This document shows, in pieces, positions 4,576 to 18,104 of a stretch of 32,168 nt of DNA. Position 1 is the first letter of the stretch. Each line of letters starts with the position of its first letter. The notes under the pieces were generated by a model, which was not told the DNA's origin, ran no database searches, and was given only the letters and a program-made list of their open reading frames with translations. The stretch lies in contig CANQFZ010000022.1 in NCBI GenBank assembly GCA_947600065.1, positions 1 to 32,168 of the forward strand. The letters are read 5' to 3'. This DNA is from an uncultured Clostridia bacterium. Lineage in GTDB: Bacteria > Bacillota > Clostridia > Oscillospirales > Ruminococcaceae. Made by a program: the position numbers and the translations under genes.

Positions 4576-4594
4576 TTTTACTGAATACTGTACA

Positions 4595-4622
4595 CAGCGT
4601 TGTACGCGAAGCGTTCAATGCG
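4595..4622 (+). repeat. 28-bp dispersed module, copy a
   Basis: Begins CAGCGTTGTACGC and ends GTTCAATGCG, with internal complementarity between GTACGC and GCGTAC (the latter using the flanking TAC). Identical copies are at 7767-7794 and 10158-10185, and reverse-strand copies at 18326-18353 (one mismatch) and 26404-26431. It interrupts a TGTACAC-type heptamer array here. Confidence 0.85.
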
Positions 4623-4660
4623 TACACTGTCAACTGACTACAGCCCTATCCCCCTGCCCT

Positions 4661-4765
4661 TCTAGAGGTTAGATGTAAGAAGTAAGAGGTAAGAATTTCG
4701 GGGAACTTCTGAGATAAAAAGTTGTTTGGTTTTCGGAGAAAGAGGCTGGAGGCTAGAATGCTAAC
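4661..4765 (+). repeat. Heptamer-bracketed core, left copy
   Basis: A purine-rich heptamer array (TAGAGGT, TAGATGT, AAGAAGT, AAGAGGT, AAGAATT), then a ~50-bp core containing GGGGAACTTCTGAG and AAAAGTTGTTTGGTTTTC, then GAGGCTGGAGGCTAGA. The same unit is inverted at 5160-5265 and repeated directly, diverged, at about 9818-9925. Confidence 0.75.
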
Positions 4766-4839
4766 GAGAAACGAACTGCCTTTCAGTTACAACTCTAACC
4801 TCTTACCTCTAACCTCTAACCTCTAGAAGGGGAAGGGGG

Positions 4840-4871
4840 AGGGTTCGGGGCGCTGGCGCGCCCCGAACCCT
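4840..4871. repeat. GC-rich hairpin, 14-bp perfect stem
   Basis: AGGGTTCGGGGCGC, loop TGGC, then its exact complement. It sits next to GGGGAAGGGGG (4831-4841 region), the half-site that elsewhere forms a partner hairpin. No T-run follows, so it is not a simple terminator. Confidence 0.7.
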
Positions 4872-5042
4872 GCCTTGGTCTAACCTCCCGTTTCTCTTAA
4901 ACGCGCGTTCAATACCAAAAGTGGAAAACGCGCAAATCGGGCGGGTAAGCCGGTTTGGAGTTGAGAAGGTACGGGCGAGCAATTGCCTTTCCGCTCTTAC
5001 TGCATACTGTACCCTGTCTCCTGTCACCTGCCGGCAGGGGCA

Positions 5043-5107
5043 GCGGGGACGAAGTCCCCGCGACTTTCCCCCTTCCCCATCGGGGAAGGGGGTCAGGGGG
5101 ATAGGGC
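5043..5107 (+). repeat. Paired GC-rich hairpins, repeat copy
   Basis: Hairpin one is GCGGGGAC-GAA-GTCCCCGC (5043-5061). Hairpin two is CCCCCTTCCCC-ATC-GGGGAAGGGGG (5068-5092), followed by TCAGGGGGATAGGGCGA. The second hairpin and its tail recur at 10049-10090 and, inverted, at 13461-13500. Confidence 0.8.
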
Positions 5108-5159
5108 GAAAGTGCGTTATTGAGCGAAATAGCGTTTGAAAAGAAATAAGATGTTGGAG

Positions 5160-9716: not shown

Positions 9717-9817
9717 CAGGGGTATGGGGGCAGCGCCCCCATCGCGTCAGCAAGCGCATTAGATTAAATGCCTGCGGCATTGAATCTGGGGTGCGGGGAA
9801 AACAAGAGTTTTCCCTG

Positions 9818-9925
9818 CTAGAGGTAAGAAGTAAGAGATAAGAGGTAAGAATTTCAAGGAGCTTTTGAAAGATAAAGTTTATTGATACTCAGAAAAAGAA
9901 GCTAGAGGCTAGAGTTTTGAACCCT
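9818..9925 (+). repeat. Heptamer-bracketed core, third copy
   Basis: AGAGGTAAGAAGTAAGAG array, core AATTTCAAGGAGCTTTTG...AAAGTTTATTGATACTC, then GAAGCTAGAGGCTAGAG. Same layout as 4661-4765, with diverged core. Confidence 0.65.
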
Positions 9926-10019
9926 AGCCACTTTTTCTTTTTATGCGTTATAATCATCGGACAACCTTTCGGCAATTACTGAATACTGTACCCTGTCAAT
10001 TGTCAACTGCCGACAGCGG

Positions 10020-10090
10020 GTGCAGGGCGCGCAGCGCCCTGCACTCTTCCCCCTTCCCCTTCGGGGAAGGGGGTCAGGGGGTTGGGGCGA
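10020..10090 (+). repeat. Paired GC-rich hairpins, repeat copy
   Basis: GTGCAGGGCGC-GCA-GCGCCCTGCAC (10020-10044) followed by CCCCCTTCCCC-TTC-GGGGAAGGGGG (10049-10073), then the conserved tail TCAGGGGGTTGGGGCGA. Confidence 0.8.
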
Positions 10091-10157
10091 GATAACGTTA
10101 TTGAGAGAAACAACGTTTGAAAAGAACAACCTTTCCGCTCTTACTGAATACTGTATA

Positions 10158-10185
10158 CAGCGTTGTACGCGAAGCGTTCAATGCG
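10158..10185 (+). repeat. 28-bp dispersed module, copy c
   Basis: Identical to copy a, inserted in a TGTACAC-type heptamer array (ACTGTATA before, TACACTGTCAACTG after). It ends 60 bp before the csoR promoter. Confidence 0.85.
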
Positions 10186-10244
10186 TACACTGTCAACTGC
10201 CAACAGGGTGTCGCTTTTTTTCACCAAATTTTCACATTTCCCTC

Positions 10245-10273
10245 TTGACAAATACCCCACGGGGGTATATAAT
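10245..10273 (+). promoter_or_regulatory. Copper operon promoter with CsoR operator in the spacer
   Basis: A perfect -35 TTGACA (10245-10250), 17-bp spacer and perfect -10 TATAAT (10268-10273). The spacer is filled by ATACCCC-ACG-GGGGTAT (10252-10268), the TACCCC/GGGGTA palindrome that CsoR-type repressors bind. Apo-CsoR bound here would block RNA polymerase directly and copper would release it. The operator placement is seen in the sequence; the mechanism is from known CsoR systems. Confidence 0.9.
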
Positions 10274-10289
10274 ATACTCGTGAGCAGAC

Positions 10290-10557
10290 GGCTAACTTGA
10301 TAAGCTTTAAGCGTTTAGCGGGCAAAGGGCTAAACAACCAACCGTTTGGCTAACTTGCCGACTACTAAGTATTTGGCGTGCATATGGCTAAATGGCTAAC
10401 TTGATAAGTGCTAAGCGTTTAGTGGGCAAGGGGCTAACTGCTATCTGGCTAACTTGCTGACTACTAAGTATTTGACGTGCATATGGCTAAACGGCTAACT
10501 TGATAAGCGCTAAGCGTTTAGCGGGCAAGGGGCTAACTGCTATTCGGCTGAACAAGC
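10290..10557 (+). repeat. 99-bp tandem repeats in the csoR leader
   Basis: About 2.6 copies of a ~99-104 bp unit fill the untranslated leader between the promoter and csoR. GGCTAACTTGATAAG begins units at 10290, 10394 and 10493; a second half-unit GGCTAACTTGC with GACTACTAAGTATTTG begins at 10348 and 10447; a degenerate GGCTGAACAAGCG closes the array at about 10546. Short complementary stretches such as CGCTAA and TTAGCG recur. There is no ORF with a ribosome site and no T-run after the hairpins. Confidence 0.85.
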
Positions 10558-10581: not shown

Positions 10582-10881
10582 ATGCGCGAGTGTGATTGTT
10601 CAAAAAAGCGAAAAGACCGCTCCCCCGAAGAATATAAAAGCCTTATAAACCGCCTGAACAGAATTTCGGGACAGATAAACGGAATAAAGAAAATGGTCGA
10701 GGAGAGCGCCTATTGCACCGACATTCTTATACAGGTGTCGGCGGTGAACTCCGCCCTTAATTCCTTTAACAAGGCTCTGCTTTCCGAGCATATAAGGACG
10801 TGCGTTGCGGATAATATAAGAGAAGGCGACGACGAAATAGTTGAAGAACTTGTCGAAACTCTCCGAAAACTTATGAAATAG
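10582..10881 (+). CDS. csoR: Copper-sensing repressor CsoR
   Basis: A 99-residue all-helical DUF156 repressor. The Cu(I) ligands of the family fit exactly: Cys45 (SAYCTD), His70 and Cys74 (EHIRTC), with the same spacing (25 and 4) as Cys36/His61/Cys65 of Mycobacterium tuberculosis CsoR, which separates it from RcnR and FrmR. I chose the ATG at 10582 because GAGGTGAT sits just before it; the in-frame GTG at 10558 has no ribosome site. Two extra Cys (4 and 6) lie in the N-terminal arm. It controls the promoter at 10245-10273 and hence itself and copA, 9 bp downstream. Confidence 0.93.
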   Translation: MRECDCSKKRKDRSPEEYKSLINRLNRISGQINGIKKMVEESAYCTDILIQVSAVNSALNSFNKALLSEHIRTCVADNIREGDDEIVEELVETLRKLMK

Positions 10882-10890
10882 GGGATAGAA

Positions 10891-13410
10891 ATGGTCTTGT
10901 ATAATGTCACGGGAATGAGCTGTGCGGCTTGTTCCGCAAGAATTGAAAAAGCTGTAAGCGCTGTAAAAGGCGTTAAACAGTGCTCGGTTAATTTACTCAC
11001 AAACTCAATGAGCGTTGAGGGCGGAGAAAGCGCCGACATAATAAGCGCTGTTGAAAAAGCGGGCTACGGCGCGGCGCTGAAGGATAAGCCCGCCGAAAAA
11101 TCCGCCGACGACAGTTCTCTCGAAGATAAAGAGTCCCCGAAAATAAAACGCAGACTTTTCTGGAGTTTGGGTTTTATGGTGGTGCTTTTGTATATCTCAA
11201 TGGGCGGCATGATGTGGGGCGCTCCGCTCCCGCCGTTTTTAGCTGACGATCATGTTTCCATGGCGATAGTCCAGCTTTTGCTTTCGGGCATTATAATGGT
11301 TATAAACCAAAAGTTCTTTATCAGCGGCTTTAAGGGAATTATACACCGCGCACCGAATATGGATACGCTCGTTGCGTTGGGCTCTGCCGCGGCATTTATT
11401 TACAGCGTCTATGCAACATTTGTTATGTCAAACGCACAAGCGGCCGGAGACCACGAGCTTGTTATGACTTATATGCACGAGCTTTATTTCGAGAGCGCAG
11501 GCACTATCCTAACGCTCATTACTCTCGGAAAATATCTCGAAGCCCGCTCTAAAGGCAGGACGACAGACGCCCTTAAAAGCCTTATAAAGCTGGCGCCGAA
11601 AACCGCCGTTTTAATTAAAGACGGACAGGAAATAACCGTTCCGATCGAACAAGTAAAGGTCGGCGACATTTTTGCCGTTAAGGCGGGAGAAAATATCCCG
11701 ACAGACGCAGTAATAATCGAGGGAGAAACTTCCGTAAATGAAAGCGCTCTAACGGGCGAAAGCATTCCCGCGGATAAATCTGTAGGAGATGATGTTTCGG
11801 CGGCGACAATAAACCTTTCGGGGTATATTCGCTGTAGGGCTACACGCGTCGGAGAAGACACCTCTCTTTCGCAGATAATAAAAATGGTAAGCGACGCGTC
11901 CGCAACAAAAGCTCCGATAGCAAAGATAGCGGATAAGGTTTCGGGAGTGTTCGTGCCTGCGGTTATTTCAATTGCGCTTGTGACGATCGCCGTTTGGCTC
12001 ATAACGGGCGGCGGCGCAGGCTATGCGATAGAGCGCGGGATATCCGTCCTCGTCATCTCCTGCCCCTGCGCTTTAGGACTTGCAACCCCCGTGGCGATAA
12101 TGGTTGGAAGCGGAATGGGCGCGAAAAACGGGATATTGTTTAAAACCGCCGTTTCACTTGAACAGGCAGGAAAAACGGAAATTGTCCTGCTCGATAAGAC
12201 AGGCACAATAACCGGCGGAGAACCCGCCGTTACGGATATAATTCCCTTTGGCATTTCAGAAGACGAGCTTTTGAAAACCGCCTGCGCCCTAGAAAAGCGC
12301 AGCGAACACCCTCTCGCAAAAGCAATAGTAAACCTCGGCAGCGAAAAGGGATACACCGCGGACGAACCCGAAAGGTTTGAGGTATTAAAGGGCGCGGGAG
12401 TTGCGGCAGTAATAAACGGCGAAAATTATTCCGCCGGCAATTTAAAGCTCTGCGAGGGTATCTGCGATATTCCTAAAAGCATTCGCGAAAATGCCGACAA
12501 GCTCTCAAACGACGGGAAAACACCGCTGTTTTTCTGTCGGGAAAAGTCGCTTTTGGGCATGATTGCCGTTGCGGACAAGATAAAGCCCGAAAGCCCCTCT
12601 GCTGTGTCCGAGCTTAAAAACATGGGAATAAAGACCGTTATGCTGACGGGCGACAACAAGCGCACCGCCGAAGCCGTCGGAAAGCTCGCGGGAATAGACG
12701 AGGTGATCGCCGAAGTTATGCCCGCAGATAAAGAAAGCGTCGTAAGGCGTTTTCAAAAAGAAGGCAAGGTCGCAATGGTCGGCGACGGCATAAACGACGC
12801 GCCCGCTCTGACGCGCGCCGATACGGGAATAGCGATAGGCGCGGGAGCAGACGTAGCCGTAGACGCGGCGGACGTTGTCCTTATGAAAAGCAGGCTCTCG
12901 GACGTTCCCGCGGCGATAAGGCTTTCAAGAAAAACGCTCCGCAACATAAGGCAGAACCTTTTCTGGGCGTTCTTCTATAACGTTATAGGAATACCTCTTG
13001 CGGCGGGAGTATGGATACCGCTTTTCGGGTGGCGGCTCAATCCGATGTTCGGGGCGCTGGCTATGTCGCTTTCGAGCTTTTTCGTAGTGACAAACGCTTT
13101 GCGGCTCAATTTCTGCAATATCTACGACCCAAAGCATGACAGGAAAATCAAAGCGAAACATTCGCTTGAAAATAATAATGAAAATCAGGAGGAACAGACA
13201 ATGGAAGTAACAATGAAAATCGAAGGTATGATGTGCGGTCACTGCGAGGCGACTGTTAAAAAGGCGCTCGAAGCGGTAGACGGAGTTTCCGAAGCCACAG
13301 TTAGCCACGAAAACGGAACGGCTGTAGTTAAACTAAGCGGAAACGTTGACAAAGAAGTTCTCAAAAAAGCCGTTGAGGACAAAGACTATAAAGTGACGGA
13401 TATTCAGTAA
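10891..13410 (+). CDS. copA: Cu(I)-exporting P1B-type ATPase with C-terminal CopZ-like domain
   Basis: An 839-residue copper pump. In order: an N-terminal heavy-metal domain (GMSCAAC, Cys11/Cys14), eight predicted membrane helices, actuator motif TGES, ion site CPC (391-393), phosphorylation motif DKTGT (Asp435), HP motif with His473, TGDN (Asp588), GDGINDAP (631 on), and helix 7-8 motifs YN and MSLSS that mark the Cu(I) P1B-1 class. It expels cytosolic copper with ATP. Unusually, after the last helix and a charged linker (KHSLENNNENQEEQT) it continues in frame into a second complete heavy-metal domain (GMMCGHC, Cys782/Cys785). That domain carries its own ribosome site and ATG; see the nested copZ entry. 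It lies 9 bp after csoR in the same operon. Confidence 0.95.
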   Translation: MVLYNVTGMSCAACSARIEKAVSAVKGVKQCSVNLLTNSMSVEGGESADIISAVEKAGYGAALKDKPAEKSADDSSLEDKESPKIKRRLFWSLGFMVVLLYISMGGMMWGAPLPPFLADDHVSMAIVQLLLSGIIMVINQKFFISGFKGIIHRAPNMDTLVALGSAAAFIYSVYATFVMSNAQAAGDHELVMTYMHELYFESAGTILTLITLGKYLEARSKGRTTDALKSLIKLAPKTAVLIKDGQEITVPIEQVKVGDIFAVKAGENIPTDAVIIEGETSVNESALTGESIPADKSVGDDVSAATINLSGYIRCRATRVGEDTSLSQIIKMVSDASATKAPIAKIADKVSGVFVPAVISIALVTIAVWLITGGGAGYAIERGISVLVISCPCALGLATPVAIMVGSGMGAKNGILFKTAVSLEQAGKTEIVLLDKTGTITGGEPAVTDIIPFGISEDELLKTACALEKRSEHPLAKAIVNLGSEKGYTADEPERFEVLKGAGVAAVINGENYSAGNLKLCEGICDIPKSIRENADKLSNDGKTPLFFCREKSLLGMIAVADKIKPESPSAVSELKNMGIKTVMLTGDNKRTAEAVGKLAGIDEVIAEVMPADKESVVRRFQKEGKVAMVGDGINDAPALTRADTGIAIGAGADVAVDAADVVLMKSRLSDVPAAIRLSRKTLRNIRQNLFWAFFYNVIGIPLAAGVWIPLFGWRLNPMFGALAMSLSSFFVVTNALRLNFCNIYDPKHDRKIKAKHSLENNNENQEEQTMEVTMKIEGMMCGHCEATVKKALEAVDGVSEATVSHENGTAVVKLSGNVDKEVLKKAVEDKDYKVTDIQ
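13201..13410 (+). CDS. copZ: Copper chaperone CopZ, nested in-frame start within copA
   Basis: A 69-residue heavy-metal-associated protein that would be made from an internal start. AGGAGGA (13187-13193) is followed after 7 bp by ATG (13201), which is ideal spacing; the codons around it belong to the unstructured linker of CopA. The product MEVTMKIEGMMCGHCEA... has the length and MxCxxC site (Cys12, Cys15) of free CopZ, which ferries Cu(I) to CopA and CsoR. The gene would thus give both a CopA-CopZ fusion and free CopZ. It may have arisen by loss of the copA stop before a neighbouring copZ. Translation from this site is inference. Confidence 0.6.
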   Translation: MEVTMKIEGMMCGHCEATVKKALEAVDGVSEATVSHENGTAVVKLSGNVDKEVLKKAVEDKDYKVTDIQ

Positions 13411-13704
13411 ATTTGCGGTGGTTCTTTTCAAACGTTCTTTTCTTTAAATAAAGTTAATTCGCCCTAACCCCCTAACCCCCTTCCCCGAAGGGGAAGGGGG
13501 AAAATGGCGGGGCGCGCAGCGCCCCGCCGCCCCGCCGTGCGCTGTGCGATGCGCGCGCAAAACGCTGTAAACGCGCGGTGGTTATTATGCTGTTCACTAT
13601 AAACTTTTAACTGTACACTGATACAAAAAGTACTGTCTGACTTGTATTATACTGTACACTGTACATTGTACACTGTATACTGTCAACAAAGGAGTTGATA
13701 TAAC
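13411..13704. other. Intergenic repeats between copA and clpB
   Basis: Holds an inverted copy of the paired-hairpin repeat (TTCTTTTCAAACG at about 13425, CCCCCTTCCCC-GAA-GGGGAAGGGGG at 13476-13500, GGCGGGGCGC-GCA-GCGCCCCGCC at 13506-13528) and a TGTACAC-type heptamer array (about 13655-13687) ending next to the clpB ribosome site. I see no CIRCE inverted repeat (TTAGCACTC type), no CtsR box and no convincing promoter. Confidence 0.75.
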
Positions 13705-16353: not shown

Positions 16354-16367
16354 ATTTGATTTTAATT

Positions 16368-18104
16368 TTACTTGTTCATGCCCATTATGATTATTACAAT
16401 TATTGCAATTATCAGCGCTATGACCGCCGCAACGAAAAGCCCCACGGGAACGCCTTTCTTCTGCGGTACGGGCGGCTGTTCAACGGTTTGAACGGGCGGT
16501 TCTTCCTGCCTGACAGGCTCGGCGGGCTGAACAGTGGGAACAGCGGGCTGAACGGGCGTTATGGGCGGTGTAGTTTCCTTAACGGGTTGCTCTGTCGGTT
16601 GTGGAATAACGGGAGCTTCTTCAACTACGGGTTCTTCAATCTCTTGCTCCGCAACGGGTTCTTCGACTGCTTGCTCAACAACTGGTTCTTCAACTTCTTG
16701 CTCAACAACAGGTTCTTCAACCGCTTGCTCCTCTACGGGTTCTTCAACTGCTTGCTCAACAACAGGTTCTTCGACTGCCTGCTCGGCAACTGGTTCTTCG
16801 ACTGCTTGCTCTGCAATGGGTTCTTCAACCTCTTGCTCTGCAATGGGTTCTTCAGCTTCTTGCTCAGCAACGGGTTCTTCAGCTTCTTGCTCAGCAACGG
16901 GTTCTTCGACTGCTTGCTCAACAACAGGTTCTTCAACTTCCTGTTCTGCAACAGGTTCTTCGACTGCTTGCTCAACAACAACTTCTTCAACCGCTTGCTC
17001 CTCTACGGGTTCTTCAGCTGCTTGCTCGGCAACAGGTTCTTCGACTGCTTGCTCTGCAACTGGTTCTTCAATCTCTTGCTCCGCAACGGGTTCTTCAACT
17101 TCTGGCTCTGCAACAGGTTCTTCAACCACTTGCTCTGCAACGGGTTCTTCAGCTACTTGCTCCGCAACAGGTTCTTCAACTTCCTGTTCAACTACAGCTT
17201 CTTCGACTGCTTGCTCTGCAATAGGTTCTTCGACTTCCTGTTCTGCAACAGGTTCTTCAACTGCTTGCTCTGCAACAGGTTCTTCAGCTTCTTGCTCAAC
17301 AACTGGTTCTTCAACCACTTGCTCTGCAACGGGTTCTTCGACTACTTGCTCAACAACGGGTTCTTCAACTACTTGCTCAGCAACGGGTTCTTCAACCGCT
17401 TGCTCCGCAACGGTTTCTTCAACTACTTGCTCGGCAACGGGTTCTTCAACTTCTTGCTCAGCAACGGGTTCTTCATATACCGTAGGCTGAATATCGGGCT
17501 CGGCAGCAAGCGCCGCAAAATTGTCCGCCATTCCCGCAAATGTAACGGGTTCGACAGTGACAGGCTCGGCGGTTGCGGCTTTAGGCTGCTCGGGCATAGT
17601 CTGTTCGGGTTCGAGCGAAACTTCATCCATAGAGCCGCCAAGAAAACGATAAGGGTCAAGTATAACGTCAAGCTCGGCATTTTCTTCCATAGAACAGCCG
17701 TCTATAACGGGAATGTTGTTCGTTATCTCAATGTTTTCACCGCCGTCGCTCATCGAAAAGTTCTCGACGCGCATTTCGTCGCCCTTCTTCGGAGCTTTCT
17801 GGCGAACGCGCCCTGTCGATAAATCAACCGCCTCAATTGTCGGCACCTGAAAACCTTCCGCGCCAAACGCGTTTATTGCGCCCGAGACCGCCGAAACTGC
17901 TTCTTCGGAAAAGCTGTTCGTTCCGAAAAGATCCGCTTCGCCCGAAGCACCGAAGGGTGCGCTGCTGTCAGGCGCGTCCGTATAGGCAGGGTTCTGCTGT
18001 ACGGGAGGTTTTTTCGGAAATCTTCCCACAGGCACAGGCGTGCCGCACTCCATACAGAACAAACTTCCGTCTATAAGCTTTTTACCGCAATTTCCGCAAA
18101 ACAT
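16368..18104 (-). CDS. Zinc-ribbon, acidic nonapeptide-repeat, tail-anchored protein
   Basis: A 578-residue protein of unknown function. The N-terminus is a zinc ribbon (MFCGNCGKKL...FCMECGTPV, two CxxC pairs). A low-complexity acidic region follows, then 32 tandem nonapeptides of consensus EEPVAEQAV (DNA 16611-17474, exactly 32 x 27 bp), a Pro/Gln/Val/Thr-rich stretch, and a C-terminal hydrophobic helix (GLFVAAVIALIIAIIVIII) ending MGMNK. The likely topology is cytosolic ribbon and stalk held to the membrane by the tail helix. I chose the ATG at 18104: GGGGGAA precedes it, and an upstream in-frame ATG at 18176 falls within the -35 box of the gene's own promoter. The function may be scaffolding or spacing, by analogy only. 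The units differ at many third positions, so the array is not a recent single expansion. Confidence 0.85.
   Translation of the reverse strand: MFCGNCGKKLIDGSLFCMECGTPVPVGRFPKKPPVQQNPAYTDAPDSSAPFGASGEADLFGTNSFSEEAVSAVSGAINAFGAEGFQVPTIEAVDLSTGRVRQKAPKKGDEMRVENFSMSDGGENIEITNNIPVIDGCSMEENAELDVILDPYRFLGGSMDEVSLEPEQTMPEQPKAATAEPVTVEPVTFAGMADNFAALAAEPDIQPTVYEEPVAEQEVEEPVAEQVVEETVAEQAVEEPVAEQVVEEPVVEQVVEEPVAEQVVEEPVVEQEAEEPVAEQAVEEPVAEQEVEEPIAEQAVEEAVVEQEVEEPVAEQVAEEPVAEQVVEEPVAEPEVEEPVAEQEIEEPVAEQAVEEPVAEQAAEEPVEEQAVEEVVVEQAVEEPVAEQEVEEPVVEQAVEEPVAEQEAEEPVAEQEAEEPIAEQEVEEPIAEQAVEEPVAEQAVEEPVVEQAVEEPVEEQAVEEPVVEQEVEEPVVEQAVEEPVAEQEIEEPVVEEAPVIPQPTEQPVKETTPPITPVQPAVPTVQPAEPVRQEEPPVQTVEQPPVPQKKGVPVGLFVAAVIALIIAIIVIIIMGMNK
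16611..17474 (-). repeat. 32 x 27-bp coding tandem repeat
   Basis: In-frame units encoding EEP(V/I)(A/V/E)EQ plus two variable residues drawn from A, E, V and I. Every unit keeps the 27-bp length. Variation is concentrated at position 5 (A/V/E) and positions 8-9. Confidence 0.95.

Follow-up and report, generated by a model that had tools for sequence, protein, structure and literature searches.

The window, by which we mean the whole 32,168-nt stretch of DNA analysed here, carries a csoR-copA locus. A csoR-like metal-sensing repressor gene (10582..10881, + strand) was identified by Pfam PF02583 at 107.8 bits; its product scored 78.5 bits against NCBIfam RicR, under the cut-off of 175. It is followed by copA (10891..13410, + strand), which encodes a Cu(I)-type P1B ATPase of 839 aa (NCBIfam TIGR01511, 604.7 bits; cut-off 397). 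Pfam recognized E1-E2_ATPase, Hydrolase and two HMA stretches in this product, the N-terminal HMA being encoded at 10900-11067 and the C-terminal HMA at 13210-13392 (both + strand). The translation contains CPCALG and an N-terminal GMSCAAC; that is, the profile match, the CPC motif and the N-terminal GMxCxxC by which we recognized CopA are all present, and no stop lies inside the ORF 10891-13410. An intergenic stretch separates copA from clpB, which runs from 13705.

Upstream of csoR, a probable csoR-copA promoter (TTGACA, 17 nt, TATAAT; 10245..10273, + strand) was read by eye, and its spacer holds the palindrome ATACCCC-ACG-GGGGTAT (10252-10268), a candidate CsoR operator that presumably resembles CsoR boxes. 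Because this palindrome is located between the promoter hexamers, copper would be predicted to induce csoR-copA. The leader between the probable promoter and csoR (10288-10544) contains inexact copies of a GGCTAACTTG unit, among them two in tandem over 99 nt with 94% identity. Further intergenic repeats, a number of which bear hairpins of the CCCCCTTCCCC type, are dispersed at 4578-5145, at 9813-10206 and near 13417-13510, and approximately 31 register copies with 27-nt spacing at 16507-17589 correspond to a 9-aa tandem repeat in ORF 16356-17822 or 16561-17490.

A nested copZ frame and its putative ribosome site

The linker of CopA, from NALRLN at the end of the last membrane segment to an internal ATG (13111..13200, + strand), holds a putative internal ribosome site at its 3' end. 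The Shine-Dalgarno (SD) sequence AGGAGG (13187..13192, + strand) is separated by an 8-nt spacer (13193-13200) from an ATG (13201-13203) that opens a nested in-frame copZ of 69 aa (13201..13410, + strand) with copA's stop in common. The signals ahead of the C-terminal HMA are thus those of the original prediction, which had counted them as AGGAGGA plus 7 nt, and the predicted product is CopZ-sized, as had also been claimed. It begins MEVTMKIEGMMCGHC, and HMA spans nearly its whole length (Pfam, 61.6 bits); the solved CopZ 6ff2 was matched at E 5e-11, and the free 69-aa form, with the motif GMMCGHC, scored 67.4 bits against NCBIfam CopZ_AFE_1862, for which the cut-off is 85.

With an assumed anti-SD sequence, as in all SD energies reported here, the pairing ahead of ATG 13201 was -10.3 kcal/mol, which is the strongest value among the 45 in-frame ATG/GTG/TTG codons of the copA ORF and also ranks first among the 86 start-type codons in all of its frames. 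The values for copA's own start (-6.4), csoR (-7.1) and clpB (-8.2) were all weaker. A search of the assembly of the window's organism did not recover the 3' end of its 16S rRNA, and a short match in one congener was not recognizable as rRNA. Folding at the internal site was -1.0 kcal/mol per 40 nt, compared with -7.8 at other ATGs, a difference that carries no weight because it is confounded by the lower G+C (0.31 versus 0.50). An in-frame start behind a strong and conserved SD inside a longer gene, as found here, is the sequence mark of a putative in-frame internal initiation gene, in which ribosomes would start at the internal codon and the short protein would accumulate.

Start and SD among fused relatives

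Within the genus, a match to CopA at E <= 1e-100 was obtained in 39 of 43 genomes, and 37 of these 39 read fused, three of them at 96% identity; a locus was called fused here when the match reached the C-terminal domain without a stop or when the fetched locus showed the fusion. Of the remaining two, one (L031) is truncated where its contig ends, and the other (L213) is split, with copA and copZ out of frame and the break at a homopolymer run, which could reflect either an assembly error or a recent split. The possibility raised originally, that a sequencing error conceals a stop before 13201, is untenable because the fusion recurs across the genus genomes and the wider set of loci.

The wider set comprised 80 loci from species genomes, 100 from the class list and 40 from the phylum list. 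The first 80 were found with peptide patterns including MKIEGMMC, and their class was inferred from record titles (Clostridia, Oscillospiraceae, Lachnospiraceae, Ruminococcus and so on). The class and phylum loci were hand-picked among the matches listed by similarity, mostly as fused ones, with their SD status then unknown to the picker. The C-terminal HMA was fused in 221 of 250 copA loci, which is no measure of prevalence because the loci were hand-picked and mostly fused; 202 fused loci remained after near-duplicates were dropped. Two loci (L144 and L176) that had no C-terminal domain by a narrow motif were fused by a wider one and were counted so.

For each fused locus, the 16 codons ending 5 codons before GMxC served as the test window, and 8254 same-size windows from the same genes served as controls. 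An in-frame ATG, GTG or TTG with SD <= -6 kcal/mol was present in 187 of 202 fused loci versus 963 of 8254 controls, and one with SD <= -8 kcal/mol in 171 of 202 versus 206 of 8254, comparisons for which Fisher p-values are inflated by relatedness among loci. For the internal ATG alone in 94 loci, SD <= -8 was obtained in 88, versus 1.6% of 2687 other in-frame ATGs, and the mean SD energy in these loci was -8.7 for copA's own starts and -10.4 for the internal starts. The internal start codon was ATG in 184 of the 187 loci and GTG in three (in L127 and L138, GTG replaces ATG with the SD retained), and it stood 8 codons ahead of GMxC in 168 of 187. Among the cultured species that have the site is Ruminococcus bromii ATCC 27255 (L097). 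The linker from NALRL to this start varied from 12 to 62 aa (median 28; 180 loci).

The expectation that relatives with the fused domain would keep these signals held for most of them, but not for all: 187 of 202 retain start and SD, and a minority of 15 have weak signals or none. Four of these have no start codon in the test window (L111, from R. flavefaciens ND2009, L162, L181 and L243), one has only a weak non-ATG start (L236), two have an ATG without a real SD (L159 and L253) and eight have an ATG with an SD of -5.3 to -5.7 kcal/mol (L052, L076, L135, L139, L172, L186, L245 and L250). The 15 are scattered tips on the tree; L163 (G604), at first an apparent loss, proved to have both start and SD under a wider search. 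A search for a replacement copZ covered 25 genomes, three of them exceptions, too few to test site loss against a separate copZ. G454, whose L159 lacks a real SD ahead of the C-terminal HMA, carries a CopZ-like gene (L216) between csoR and copA; G623 (L181) encodes a CopZ-like protein (L215) at an unlinked position; and no CopZ-like protein was found among those read from G535 (L162), which yielded only the Zn-type L217 and a weak 85-aa match. In three of the 25 genomes (G004, G375 and G516), the two HMA domains of copA were the sole HMA matches.

The window's genome, which is 98.6% complete, encodes two other free HMA proteins. One (L003, 1500-1760) is a Zn-type protein with the motif LDCANC and is followed by a second P-type ATPase; the other (L221) is a 77-aa protein of GMMCGMC type, similar to one in G526 (L224). 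Because of these two proteins, the window's organism may not depend on the nested copZ for a free chaperone.

Nucleotide-level selection at the internal site

Codon choice was analysed in the 182 of 202 loci that have ATG or GTG exactly 8 codons before GMxC. Lys at position -5 was encoded by AAG in 101 of 119 cases, compared with 111 of 476 in the linker just upstream; at position -4, GAG accounted for 129 of 140 Glu codons (linker, 28 of 125) and GGA for 29 of 30 Gly codons (linker, 23 of 80). Outside the SD core, there was no such codon choice (Glu at -3, GAG 11/79; Lys at -2, AAG 19/63). When the codons were resampled synonymously from linker codon usage, SD <= -8 was reached in 12% of loci (200 draws, highest 17.6%), whereas 156 of 182 was observed; permuted linker codons gave 1.4%, and 3.3% when the SD codons were permuted along with them. 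In 93 distant representatives of the 182, the SD was <= -6 in 85, and the preferred codons were again used (AAG 45/60, GAG 55/61, GGA 24/25). Single-gene synonymous tests were weak (P < 0.05 in 1 of 94), the signal being in the sum. Chance or composition as the source of the internal SD was ruled out by the control windows, codon permutation and synonymous resampling.

The same SD was found in different codon phases, as AAG GAG GAx (Lys-Glu-Glu/Asp) and AAA GGA GAx (Lys-Gly-Glu/Asp), and a third phase, AGG AGA (Arg-Arg), was clear once (L145). Among 150 loci with clear matches, the three phases were represented 123, 26 and 1 times, and a FastTree tree built on the pump core requires 14 or more changes between them, compared with 25.5 on average for shuffled phase labels; all 187 loci gave 146, 38 and 3, with at least 18 changes. 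Within 22 congeners, synonymous conservation in copA peaks in the 10-codon window that begins at codon 758 and has its end on the SD (0.85 versus a gene mean of 0.51), and the Glu codon of the SD was identical in 210 of 210 congener pairs. Taken as a comparison of sequences, these results indicate that selection at the internal SD is acting on nucleotides, beyond the peptide. The Glu codon directly 3' of the internal ATG (13201-13206) was also identical in 210 of 210 congener pairs; this constancy perhaps keeps the start region without structure or a second SD.

If only the fused protein mattered, KEE/KGE-Met would be the conserved terminus of the linker, with the ribosome site arising as a by-product. 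The linker is indeed rich in Lys and Glu, whose codons are able to build AAGGAG, and the C-terminal HMA is well conserved. However, the preference for particular codons at the SD positions is far above that in the linker and is absent from adjacent codons, identical nucleotides underlie unlike peptides through a change of phase, and neither the synonymous nor the permutation null reproduces the SD; we consider this explanation improbable. A free CopZ might also be translated from an mRNA of its own, transcribed from an internal promoter, instead of by initiation on copA mRNA; whichever the mRNA, the internal start would be the one used. This is improbable, as a promoter scan from 10300 found no + strand sigma-70-like site near 13201, and codons upstream of the SD are modestly conserved at synonymous positions (0.60 at codon 740, the 91st percentile; 0.54 at codon 750, the 75th).

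Origin of the fusion and comparison with known systems

The original prediction had proposed to look for relatives in which a stop precedes the ATG and copZ is a gene of its own. Such loci were found: a copZ-like frame lies directly downstream of copA in 23 of 28 non-fused loci. When the start of each separate copZ was taken as the best-SD candidate within 5-14 codons, its distance to GMxC was 8 codons in 17 of 23, and its SD was <= -6 in 21 of 23. On a tree of 230 rows, the fused and split states require four changes, and a single clade unites 25 of the 28 split loci; the split locus L173, with several stops, lies among fused ones. Because the tree is unrooted, fusion rather than fission is a direction that we infer.

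Since related genomes have separate copA-copZ pairs with the same start position, the internal site could be a fossil of the fusion with no present role. This is very improbable, however, as 202 non-redundant fused loci and only the four changes noted above mark the fusion as old, the SD has been kept through the 14 or more phase changes, and the site shows the gene's strongest synonymous constraint within the genus. Least credible of all is -1 frameshifting that would release a free chaperone from the N-terminal domain. It would serve the same biological end as in E. coli CopA(Z), and two of eight genes (L013 and L022) have heptamers with a stop in the -1 frame no more than 60 nt away, but CCCAAAG was absent within 400 nt after the N-terminal motif in all eight, and the window's copA has two heptamers without a -1 stop within 60 nt. 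The pairing of a slippery site with an early -1-frame stop that marks E. coli-type frameshifting was not found in the window's copA. The claim of a mechanism other than the E. coli frameshift, the subject, reportedly, of papers by Meydan (2017) and Drees (2017) on CopA and its product CopA(Z), is supported by the lack of CCCAAAG in the eight genes checked and by the conserved internal site.

Internal initiation, the reading of the nested copZ offered originally, is supported by strong comparative evidence for a conserved internal ribosome site. We propose that copA of the csoR-copA operon very probably yields both a pump with a tethered domain and a free 69-aa CopZ through the internal start at 13201, having arisen by a copA-copZ fusion in which the site was kept. 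Initiation at 10891 would produce the copper pump with its tethered C-terminal heavy-metal domain, and ribosomes binding 13187-13192 and initiating at 13201 would produce the same domain as a free CopZ, which would act as a cytosolic Cu(I) carrier delivering the metal to the pump. We infer that the start at 13201 is used in cells, that both forms work and that the ratio of tethered to free domain would be set by the two ribosome sites. Most likely, an ancestral copA-copZ pair lost the stop between its genes and retained the ribosome site of copZ.

More broadly, the nested in-frame copZ is probably a common source of a CopA-linked free chaperone in much of Clostridia and neighbouring groups, with the fused and free forms both selected and the site kept at the nucleotide level through repeated phase and linker changes. 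It would then be a widespread dual-coding device, missed by one-protein-per-gene annotation and convergent with E. coli CopA(Z), though the mechanism differs. If so, a fused domain in an annotated protein can conceal a second gene, and copA would offer a deeply conserved, testable case of in-frame internal initiation, with relatives that have a separate copZ and relatives without the site as natural controls. No description of an in-frame copZ inside copA was found in open-licence PubMed Central titles and abstracts.

The separate copA-copZ pairs of the 23 non-fused loci share with the present locus the order of pump then chaperone, a mostly identical chaperone start and an SD; unlike them, the window's copA has no stop between the two, and the chaperone coding region doubles as the end of the pump. 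In-frame internal initiation is known in bacteria, E. coli arcB being one such gene. There, as predicted here, an internal SD and start codon give a free C-terminal domain; the protein family is another one, and in copA many divergent relatives keep the site and pairs resembling the state before fusion are visible. In E. coli, as a passage of PMC5009743 describes, copA gives the pump and an approximately 70-aa chaperone, CopA(Z), by -1 frameshifting. Both systems would obtain from one copA a pump and a free chaperone of approximately 70 aa that is also a pump domain, but E. coli frees the N-terminal part by a -1 frameshift, whereas here the C-terminal domain would be freed by in-frame internal initiation with a stop codon common to both products. 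What is new relative to the E. coli case is the domain, C- rather than N-terminal, and the mechanism, internal initiation itself being already known. If this is true, two unrelated lineages have met the same problem, a pump and a free copper carrier from one gene, with different translational tricks.
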